22,018 nt of DNA from positions 1 through 22,018 of the IMG/VR virus record IMGVR_UViG_3300023210_000256. One strand, given 5' to 3'. Both the position numbers and the translations under genes were made by a program. This DNA comes from a virus. Positions 9,563-11,064 of this stretch are shown here, one piece after another. Numbering within the stretch: the stretch's first letter is position 1; each line of letters starts with the position of its first letter. Under the pieces are notes generated by a model. It worked only from the letters and a program-made list of their open reading frames with translations, ran no database searches and was not told the DNA's origin.

Positions 9563-9906
9563 ATCACCTTACCCCCGTGTTTATATGATCTTGATTTGTT
9601 GTATTTAGTTTTCAATTCAATCGCCTTTTCCATATCAATACCAACGTACTCACAAAAATCTAATATCCTCAATACACAATCTGCAAGTTCAATTGGAATA
9701 CCCGTTGGTTTGCTTACACCAAATACAGAAGTATCTTCATTTATTATTTCTTTGTATTTTTTGCCTTGCCTGAAACATTCCAATGCCTCTGACAATTCAG
9801 AATGACATAATGCAATCACTTCTCCAAACTCTAAACACTTACCATTATACCATCCTTTTTCTTTTGCAATTTCATGTGTTACTTTTTGAATGTCTCTAAT
9901 TATAAT
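9559..9906 (-). CDS. MazG-like nucleotide pyrophosphohydrolase domain protein, unusual start
   Basis: The family pattern covers IRDIQKVTHEIAKEKGWYNG, EFGEVIALCHSELSEALECF (Glu-rich metal site E..E/SE) and GIPIELADCVLRILDFCEYV (ELaD motif). MazG-like enzymes hydrolyse nucleoside triphosphates to monophosphates and pyrophosphate, cleaning the pool or lowering (p)ppGpp effects during infection. The first in-frame ATG/GTG is GTG 9819, but about 29 conserved-looking codons lie upstream of it, in frame up to a stop just before 9909. No ATG, GTG or TTG exists there. ATT at 9906, 12 bases after AGAGAGGA, is the best candidate; GTG 9819 would cut off helix 1. Confidence 0.8.
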   Translation of the reverse strand: MIIRDIQKVTHEIAKEKGWYNGKCLEFGEVIALCHSELSEALECFRQGKKYKEIINEDTSVFGVSKPTGIPIELADCVLRILDFCEYVGIDMEKAIELKTKYNKSRSYKHGGKVI

Positions 9907-10057
9907 AACAGTTTAATTCCTCTCTGGCATACCATTCTGGACTATACCCATAGTCAAACTCACCCGAACCCTTGTCAAACAGCTTACCAGCATCAACACT
10001 GGTAAGCCCTTGACCGATTAAATACTTAATGTAGCGATCTTTAAACTCAGTGGTCAT
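9896..10057 (-). CDS. small acidic phage protein (53 aa)
   Basis: The protein reads MTTEFKDRYIKYLIGQGLTS, VDAGKLFDKGSGEFDYGYSP and EWYAREELNCYYN. The end, with 'y..eP...A.eeL.yw'-like spacing, resembles small uncharacterised phage proteins. It starts two bases after the Mom-like gene stop, behind GAGGC. Its N-terminus is related to the truncated ORF on the other side of the Mom-like gene. The function is unknown. Confidence 0.7.
   Translation of the reverse strand: MTTEFKDRYIKYLIGQGLTSVDAGKLFDKGSGEFDYGYSPEWYAREELNCYYN
10035..10056. repeat. repeat copy downstream of the Mom-like gene
   Basis: GCGATCTTTAAA followed a few bases later by TGGTCAT recurs at 10751-10777. The copies encode the related starts MTTEFKDRY and MTIGEFKDRL and bracket the Mom-like gene. 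Confidence 0.6.
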
Positions 10058-10058
10058 A

Positions 10059-10712
10059 TCAAAATAGCCTCAATTGTGTTTGGGGTTCAAAACGTGCATC
10101 ATATCTTCCGTTATCACCCTTTGGATATGTTTGGCGTTTATATTTTAATTGACTGTCCCATTCCTTTCTTTGTGCTTTCGTTCCAATAAAATAAACATAG
10201 CGATGTTTTTGTGGCCTATCCCTAACATCTAAATCTTGATAATTTACCCCTTTGTTCTGTGTCACGGTTTTACTGTGTTTATTTGGATTGTTTTTATCAT
10301 ACCTCTCTGTCCTTTTTGCGGACAATCCAGTATAAACCCAATTCGTCGCCTGATAAATATAACCATGATGTCCTTTTGACGTGTCGGCATAGCTAATTAA
10401 AATCATTGATGGCAATAATTTTAATGTGTTTGCAAGAAAAAAAGACAAGGTATTTTTTTGCATGTTTTCATTTATACAAAGACGGTTTAGTTCATAAACA
10501 TGTTTTGAGTGTAATCCCCCACAAACACCCACACATAAAGCGTTATTTGGTGGCTTACCAACAGTCAAAACCCCTGATAATATTTTATTGAAATAAAGAC
10601 CATAACAAAACGAAATACTCGGAATCCTATGTGCATAATGCTTTCTTAACAACCACGGATATGATTCTTCCGATTGTATTAATTGCACACTATATAAATC
10701 TTTCACACTCAA
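10059..10712 (-). CDS. mom: Mom-like DNA adenine modification protein (217 aa)
   Basis: The sequence shows the hallmark segments of phage proteins related to Mu Mom: LLRKHYAHRIPSISFCYGLY, GVLTVGKPPNNALCVGVCGG, VYELNRLCINENMQKNTLSF, LPSMILISYADTSKGHHGYI and YQATNWVYTGLSAKRTERYD, ending with RPQKHRYVYFIG and YPKGDNGRYD. Mom has a GNAT-like fold and converts adenine in DNA to a methylcarbamoyl-type derivative, shielding phage DNA from many restriction enzymes. The conserved ELNRL and SYAD..xxHHGYIYQATN boxes are intact, so it is probably active. The start is TTG 10712, six bases after GGAGG and overlapping a mini-ORF stop (TTGA). No Com-like translational activator is identified with certainty, although the Zn protein upstream is a candidate. 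The chemistry in this phage is inferred. Confidence 0.85.
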   Translation of the reverse strand: MSVKDLYSVQLIQSEESYPWLLRKHYAHRIPSISFCYGLYFNKILSGVLTVGKPPNNALCVGVCGGLHSKHVYELNRLCINENMQKNTLSFFLANTLKLLPSMILISYADTSKGHHGYIYQATNWVYTGLSAKRTERYDKNNPNKHSKTVTQNKGVNYQDLDVRDRPQKHRYVYFIGTKAQRKEWDSQLKYKRQTYPKGDNGRYDARFEPQTQLRLF

Positions 10713-10777
10713 AAGCCCCCTCCAATCAAGTTTTCAATTTCAATAATTAGGCGATCTTTAAATTCCCCAATGGTCAT
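10709..10777 (-). CDS. mini-ORF, truncated relative of the 9896-10057 gene (22 aa)
   Basis: MTIGEFKDRLIIEIENLIGG shares its start with the 53-aa gene downstream (MTTEFKDRYIKYLIG...). It stops at TGA overlapping the TTG start of the Mom-like gene, so it may serve as a coupling leader or be a remnant left when the Mom-like gene was inserted. The start has only a weak GGA upstream. Expression is uncertain. Confidence 0.42.
   Translation of the reverse strand: MTIGEFKDRLIIEIENLIGGGF
10751..10777. repeat. repeat copy upstream of the Mom-like gene
   Basis: GCGATCTTTAAA plus TGGTCAT, the partner of the copy at 10035-10056, in the same orientation and about 720 bases away. The spacing between the two blocks differs by a few bases. 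Confidence 0.6.
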
Positions 10778-10892
10778 TTTCAAAGCATCCATTGAGCGAA
10801 CCGCCATCCTTTTTGTTTGCTGACTTGAATTTTTTCCCACATCTCAGGCAAATTGCCTTGTCACTATTCGTCTTTTTCTTTTTTAATGGCAC
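10758..10892 (-). CDS. zinc-finger micro-protein upstream of the Mom-like gene (44 aa)
   Basis: From GTG 10892 the protein reads PLKKKKTNSDKAICLRCGKK then FKSANKKDGG and GCFENDHWGI. CxxC plus a later Cys and His can hold one zinc. The basic N-terminus suggests nucleic-acid binding. In phage Mu a small zinc protein (Com) turns on mom translation; a small zinc gene directly before a Mom-like gene recalls that, but sequence similarity to Com is not clear, so this is only a hint. GTG has AAAGG about 10 bases upstream. Confidence 0.55.
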   Translation of the reverse strand: MPLKKKKTNSDKAICLRCGKKFKSANKKDGGSLNGCFENDHWGI

Positions 10893-11064
10893 TCAGAATA
10901 AACCTTTCACCACGGTCAAACAAACCCGTTATCGCCGTTCTGATAATATCGGCTTTGGTAATTTTTTCCAATTTGTGCTTTTCCACAAACGCAGAAAGAA
11001 GGTTTTCATGTTCTTCAAATAAATGAACATGAGTGTTAATAATTGGCTTTGTATGTTTTTTCAT
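10864..11064 (-). CDS. ribbon-helix-helix-like small DNA-binding protein (66 aa)
   Basis: KPIINTHVHLFEEHENLLSA forms a strand followed by a helix, then EKHKLEKITKADIIRTAITG matches the helix-turn-helix half of CopG/Arc-type ribbon-helix-helix domains ('...s.sdviR.Ai..'). Such proteins bind DNA as dimers and often repress transcription or help partitioning. ATG 11064 has AAAGGAAATT. It overlaps the Zn micro-protein by 29 bases. Confidence 0.68.
   Translation of the reverse strand: MKKHTKPIINTHVHLFEEHENLLSAFVEKHKLEKITKADIIRTAITGLFDRGERFILSAIKKEKDE

Follow-up and report, generated by a model that had tools for sequence, protein, structure and literature searches.

The mom-like gene of the window, by which we mean the whole stretch of viral DNA analysed here (22,018 bases, an entire IMG/VR virus record), was probably inserted as a nearly bare gene between a small upstream ORF and a 53-aa gene, duplicating about 27 nt of its target. 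In other phages, comparison of loci shows that mom was inserted at gene junctions, with boundaries close to those of the ORF and, in some of them, with duplication of the target. By analogy with these cases the window most likely carries an insertion of greater age, in which the upstream copy has degenerated; what was duplicated would be the target and not a gene.

The record is probably a fragment and looks like part of a tailed phage, profile scans of its genes having returned weak tail-protein matches, RecT (PF03837, E=3.6e-31 in the Pfam profile scan), exonuclease-like genes, a replication initiation protein and a DNA methylase. RecT and the exonuclease-like genes lie upstream of mom. The mom-like gene product matches the Pfam family Mom (PF25680, E=6.5e-37, 127.6 bits for a curated cut-off of 27.1), phrog_1384 (E=3.3e-60) and the solved Mom 8bv8 (E=1e-7). 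It aligned with D108 Mom at 26% identity within the alignment, and 27 columns were invariant across 26 Mom sequences including D108 (for example ELNR, N87, D110, YQA, RY and YPK). Its N-terminus reads (TTG)SVKDLY and the TTG start is likely right, because many relatives begin MSIKDKY at this position. Mu Mom is an adenine-modifying protein that makes phage DNA resistant to restriction; by homology, the window protein would likewise modify adenines and shield phage DNA from restriction. The features of the locus are as follows.

10758..10892, minus strand: 44-aa ORF, CLRCGKKF...GCFENDH, overlapping the start of the 22-aa ORF
10751..10777, minus strand: upstream repeat copy (copy A), 27 nt, ATGACCATTGGGGAATTTAAAGATCGC; ATG and eight codons, MTIGEFKDR
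10709..10777, minus strand: 22-aa ORF (stub), MTIGEFKDRLIIEIENLIGGGF; MTIGEFKDRL..., stop codon TGA at 10711-10709
10719..10723, minus strand: GGAGG, probable ribosome-binding site of mom, read in the sequence 6 nt before the TTG
10059..10712, minus strand: mom-like gene, 217 aa, TTG start, C-terminus TQLRLF
10034..10057, minus strand: downstream repeat copy (copy B), 24 nt, ATGACCACTGAGTTTAAAGATCGC; start of the 53-aa gene
9896..10057, minus strand: 53-aa gene, MTTEFKDRYIKYLIGQGL...CYYN, beginning MTTEFKDRY and left intact

Direct reading of the sequence confirmed the arrangement described by the first-pass annotation, in which a repeat lies on both sides of mom in the same orientation, at the starts of a 22-aa and a 53-aa ORF, with a TTGA at the mom start. 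The two copies differ by one 3-nt gap, each opens with an ATG in the same phase, and their exact common core is GCGATCTTTAAA (plus-strand spelling). A repeat search of the window reported them as 22 nt at 82%, and the exact 12-mer of the repeat occurs just twice in the window. Copy B starts 1 nt past the mom stop codon, and copy A lies 38 nt from the mom TTG (10712-10710), which the TGA of the 22-aa ORF overlaps to give TTGA. We presume that the 53-aa gene was the insertion target, that copy A is a remnant of the duplicated target and that the 44-aa ORF was the upstream neighbour before insertion. By eye, the 44-aa ORF is zinc-finger-like and perhaps encodes a small zinc protein; library scans gave weak matches and no clear family. 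The 66-aa protein at 10864-11064 could, also by eye, be a ribbon-helix-helix regulator; it had no Pfam match at E<=1 and its PHROG matches were weak. GATC is strongly under-represented in the window (23 sites, 58 being expected from shuffles), and one site falls in each repeat copy.

The match between the 22-aa ORF and the 53-aa gene is limited to the first 27 nt. Past the GATCGC, their DNA was aligned as well by 866 of 5000 shuffles and by 1987 of 6280 real stretches, and the protein past the repeat by 365 of 5000 shuffles. A homology between the 22-aa ORF and the 53-aa protein reaching up to LIGxG was considered and rejected, the shuffles giving it no support. Profile scans of the stub were run on one version without the first Met and on another corresponding to a longer 43-aa reading. 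Since nothing beyond GATCGC aligns better than chance, the shared element is about 27 nt and not a second gene. The original description of mom as inserted into a duplicated gene therefore gives way to a duplicated target of about 27 nt (the start codon and eight codons), which fits better.

The search for repeats around mom in other phages covered the best 80 of 595 loci (L001-L080), 26 more (L109-L134), some of which are the same contigs as some of the former, and 10 cultured-phage loci (L135-L144) chosen from 293 records. Including the window, these 117 loci were clustered by shared flanks into 52 contexts, and the flank at the mom start was scored against the flank at the mom stop in 50 testable contexts, which exclude the window. 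A score of at least 20 was reached in 5 of the 50 contexts and by 1 of 586 control ORFs (Fisher 1.4e-5), with a threshold set after the scores had been seen, control ORFs that were unclustered, unlike the Mom loci, and start codons chosen differently for the control-ORF scoring and the final 50-context scoring. The five contexts are L015, L051, L020/L022, Bacillus phage Riggi (L135) and Acinetobacter phage JeffCo (L136). Their duplications measure 23, 33, 34, 44 and about 50 nt. When each repeat was searched over the whole genome (Riggi) or over the fetched stretch (the other four), it matched best at the two mom flanks; in L051 and L020 the repeat directly adjoins the mom start. The 45 contexts below 20 are without clear repeat, L064 with a score of 17 falling under the threshold and being left uncounted. 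Polaribacter phage P12002L (L140) was rejected as a repeat case: it first scored above 20 but fell below 13 with a nearer start codon. Its repeats look dispersed, because the sole control ORF above 20 also comes from this phage. Full flank matches at L001 and L053, where the gene lies at the end of the contig, were artefacts and were excluded.

The comparison proposed with the first-pass annotation, a search for mom-less relatives with a gap bounded by the repeat, was carried out at other Mom loci and yielded three sites with a single copy and no mom. In L051, mom comes after dnaB, whose final 33 nt recur beyond mom with 31/33 identical positions. All ten other dnaB contigs (L090-L099, among which L094 and L099 are nearly identical) lack mom and contain the repeat once, and in the dnaB tree L051 nests inside these empty contigs, with a support of 0.97 for its grouping with L090. 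In L020/L022, at a junction near terminase, 23 nt ending in the ATG of the next gene are present on both sides of mom; six of the seven other contigs with this junction (L102-L107, L102 and L103 being nearly identical) show a single copy and lack mom. The seventh, L108, carries a GNAT-type gene instead of mom (1941-2495; PF00583, 1.1e-7), ending NIISLF. In Riggi, mom is flanked by a stretch of about 50 nt, promoter-like by eye and near identical over 31 nt, which its relatives Finn, Leo2 and Novomoskovsk, the ones read, contain once, at a site without mom. JeffCo gave a half-sided case: of its nine related records, Barton and DMU1 lack mom at this place and contain a single copy, and the JeffCo sequence past the second copy does not match theirs. 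For L015, the search of cultured phages gave no match to an empty site. Insertion without a long duplication is illustrated by L069, in which the start codon of a small zinc-ribbon gene is the site occupied by mom and only ATGAAA is shared. A 95-96% identical mom is found in L068, L071, L072 and L130 on the other side of this zinc-ribbon gene, and the L069 junction is empty in L068 and L071. The idea of mom as a captured cassette is thus well supported by empty sites for Mom genes elsewhere, and extends to the window only by analogy. The opposite pattern, a mom always present between unrepeated borders, is contradicted by its absence from close relatives at several sites, but its second element, borders without a clear repeat, is what the majority of contexts display.

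The limits of the transferred DNA were delineated from eight pairs of contexts in which the mom DNA is 84-93% identical and the flanks are unrelated. In six of them, identity extends from no more than 6 nt off the start codon (in one, from -18) to no more than 15 nt off the stop codon; the other two are partial, L053 being cut at the contig end in the pair L004/L053 and identity starting at +45 in L009/L022. As mom DNA is shared only from about the start to the stop codon, the moving unit is near a bare ORF. Judged from these sequences, mom spreads with little more than its ORF, and at some sites a duplication of 23-50 nt is left behind.

No relative covering the mom locus of the window was found among viral contigs, cultured phages or species genomes, and hence there is no empty site for the window itself. 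Single-sequence searches with the 53-aa gene, which reach close relatives only, gave no relative in the same three collections: a single match in cultured phages was at chance level (E=5), and the lone genome match (L082) was discarded as spurious, lying inside a Methanoperedens ORF that resembles an acetyltransferase by eye. The window RecT and the 217-aa upstream gene had no related viral contig, and the latter had one partial match among cultured phages, in Ruegeria phage 45A6. Relatives of the window tail gene were detected in L083 (69%), L084 (68%) and, more remotely, L085; L083 and L084 end about 2 kb beyond the tail gene, and the fetched parts of the tail-gene contigs showed no match to the early genes of the window except a weak glycosyltransferase one.

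We infer that the window repeat arose as in the other phages. Mom would have entered as an ORF with at most a short leader, at the junction of the small upstream ORF and the 53-aa gene, and about 27 nt of the target, comprising the start codon of the 53-aa gene and the codons next to it, would have ended up on both sides. The downstream copy would preserve the whole 53-aa gene, and the upstream copy would have become a stub ORF running into the mom start. The duplication itself could be made by recombination, either illegitimate joining or annealing; RecT and exonuclease-like genes lie near the window mom, and RecT was found in none of six other contigs, all short fragments (L051, L020, L022, L015, L108 and L069). 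Selection would then keep the insertions that leave both neighbours working and provide mom with a start signal, and such insertions would be retained because Mom would protect phage DNA from restriction. Capture through short homologies, as first suggested for this locus, is one possible account of the repeats, a duplication made at insertion explaining them equally.

Taken on its own, the window repeat is only moderately improbable, and its significance depends on the null chosen. A 12-mer repeat alone is unremarkable, since the window holds 87 plus-strand 12-mer direct-repeat pairs, ten of them within 1 kb, at nine distinct places. The score of the repeat is 13, weaker than in the proven cases, and 7 of the 586 control ORFs score as high (6/498 and 1/88). 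When the 100-nt flanks of mom were compared with Markov shuffles, their alignment score was reached in 8 of 20000 and the 12-mer in 1 of 4000, and mom ranked first among 45 window genes for its flank-repeat score. Two unrelated short ORFs might then share a 27-nt stretch by chance, mom having arrived otherwise or long ago. The neighbouring 12-mer pairs, the control ORFs and the missing homology past GATCGC all agree with such a coincidence, but the position of both copies at an ATG in phase, the abutment of copy B on the mom stop codon, the rarity of the score among shuffles and the resemblance of the layout to proven Mom insertions speak against it, and we consider it quite unlikely. A different objection concerns the stub, which might be a working leader coupling translation to mom and kept for that purpose. 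Its TGA overlaps the TTG start, which favours such a leader, but mom also possesses a GGAGG of its own, six bases ahead of the TTG, so that coupling is only possible, and no stub-like ORF was seen in the best 80 of 595 Mom loci; a coupling leader is in our opinion unlikely.

Two further explanations bear on the direction of the event. Mom could have been acquired by homologous exchange from a related phage already carrying it beside the same gene end, the repeat being the short homology used. The downstream copy in L051, Riggi and JeffCo is nearer to the allele of the relatives and the upstream copy more changed, as if derived from a donor, and such exchange is discussed for Island3 gene 68 and LRRHood in the part of Pope et al. 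2011 available to us (PMC3029335). In L020/L022, however, the copy resembling the native allele is the upstream one. No donor was found, and similar mom genes occupy unrelated contexts. Because the allele-like copy is downstream in three loci and upstream in L020/L022, exchange with a mom-carrying donor stays a real rival, though a somewhat unlikely one. Deletion would instead make mom and its repeats ancestral, the relatives having lost the gene by recombination between copies. Recombining the window copies would indeed excise mom while leaving the frame of the 53-aa gene unbroken, but the dnaB tree places one occupied contig within ten empty ones, so that many parallel losses would be needed, which makes deletion highly improbable. 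Insertion with duplication of the target is the reading that we retain for the window.

Close precedents for the scar exist. According to the accessible sections of Pope et al. 2011 (PMC3029335), the 1.35 kb insert of mycobacteriophage LRRHood is bordered by 29 bp direct repeats and gene 68 of Island3 by repeats of about 50-60 bp; these repeats include the end of the neighbouring gene and are single-copy in close relatives, and insertion is weighed there against deletion. Extra genes between direct repeats, with one copy in relatives, are likewise seen at L051, L020/L022 and Riggi, and the window has the two copies. The difference is that other genes are involved in the mycobacteriophages, whereas here one modification-gene family is scarred in several unrelated phages with borders near the mom ORF. 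Phage morons are similar in that an extra ORF lies between genes adjacent in relatives, as seen for other Mom genes; they typically have a promoter and a terminator (PMC3029335, same sections), and a consensus scan of the window found neither a promoter-like site immediately ahead of mom nor a terminator-like site on the mom strand. Transposons and homing genes share target duplication or single-gene movement with these loci but differ in that the moving unit here is only the modification-enzyme gene, with neither recombinase nor nuclease. Between the window repeat copies there is no transposase or integrase, mom being the sole long coding-strand ORF, and no inverted pair is present at the ends of mom. 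Unlike that of a target-duplicating transposable element, the length of the duplication is not fixed across the five loci (23 to about 50 nt).

The com-mom module of Mu and D108 involves the same protein family. In library scans the small upstream ORF did not match any Com profile. The 44-aa ORF was considered as a Mu-like Com; its matches were weak and unrelated, and this CxxC ORF overlaps the stub, not mom. A CxxC pattern occurs within 300 nt upstream of mom in 10 of the best 80 of 595 loci (the L053 artefact excluded); in L068, L071 and L072 the mom start shares an ATGA overlap with a small CxxC zinc-ribbon ORF, which is reminiscent of com-mom. The Riggi announcement, in the portion available, names a Mom-like gene, uses "repeat" for the terminal repeat and does not mention an insertion (PMC3853051), and a survey of jumbo phages, also available in part, describes Mom domains fused to nucleases (PMC7824862). 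Among the matches listed by our literature searches (titles and abstract starts, with few subscription journals covered), there was no report of direct repeats around mom or of a clamp motif in Mom.

Such a motif was noticed at the C-terminus of Mom. The extreme end of the L001-L080 proteins reads Q-x-x-[LIM]-[FL], 75 of these best 80 of 595 following the pattern Q..[LMIFY][FL], which was found in none of the 10 cultured-phage Moms (L135-L144). QLRLF in the window (10059-10076) and QLNLF in L066, L067, L074 and L077 resemble the sliding-clamp consensus QL[S/D]LF, and UmuC carries QLNLF according to an article available in part (PMC3716654). From this resemblance, Mom may be tethered to the replication clamp.

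A more general proposal, which we regard as very doubtful, is that Mom genes are a class of mobile ORFs that travel alone, without a recombinase of their own, repeatedly entering gene junctions, near start to stop, by a common route that duplicates 20-50 nt of target, mom borrowing a start region or promoter and the neighbour keeping its own. The way in which single genes enter packed phage genomes is a long-standing problem, since most phage mosaic borders carry no recognisable trace, as stated in the sections of PMC3029335 mentioned above. Several insertions at Mom loci come with a corresponding empty site and a duplicated target, so that illegitimate joining, annealing by phage recombinases and exchange at short homologies become testable on real junctions. 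They also show the spread of a probable anti-restriction gene among unrelated phages.
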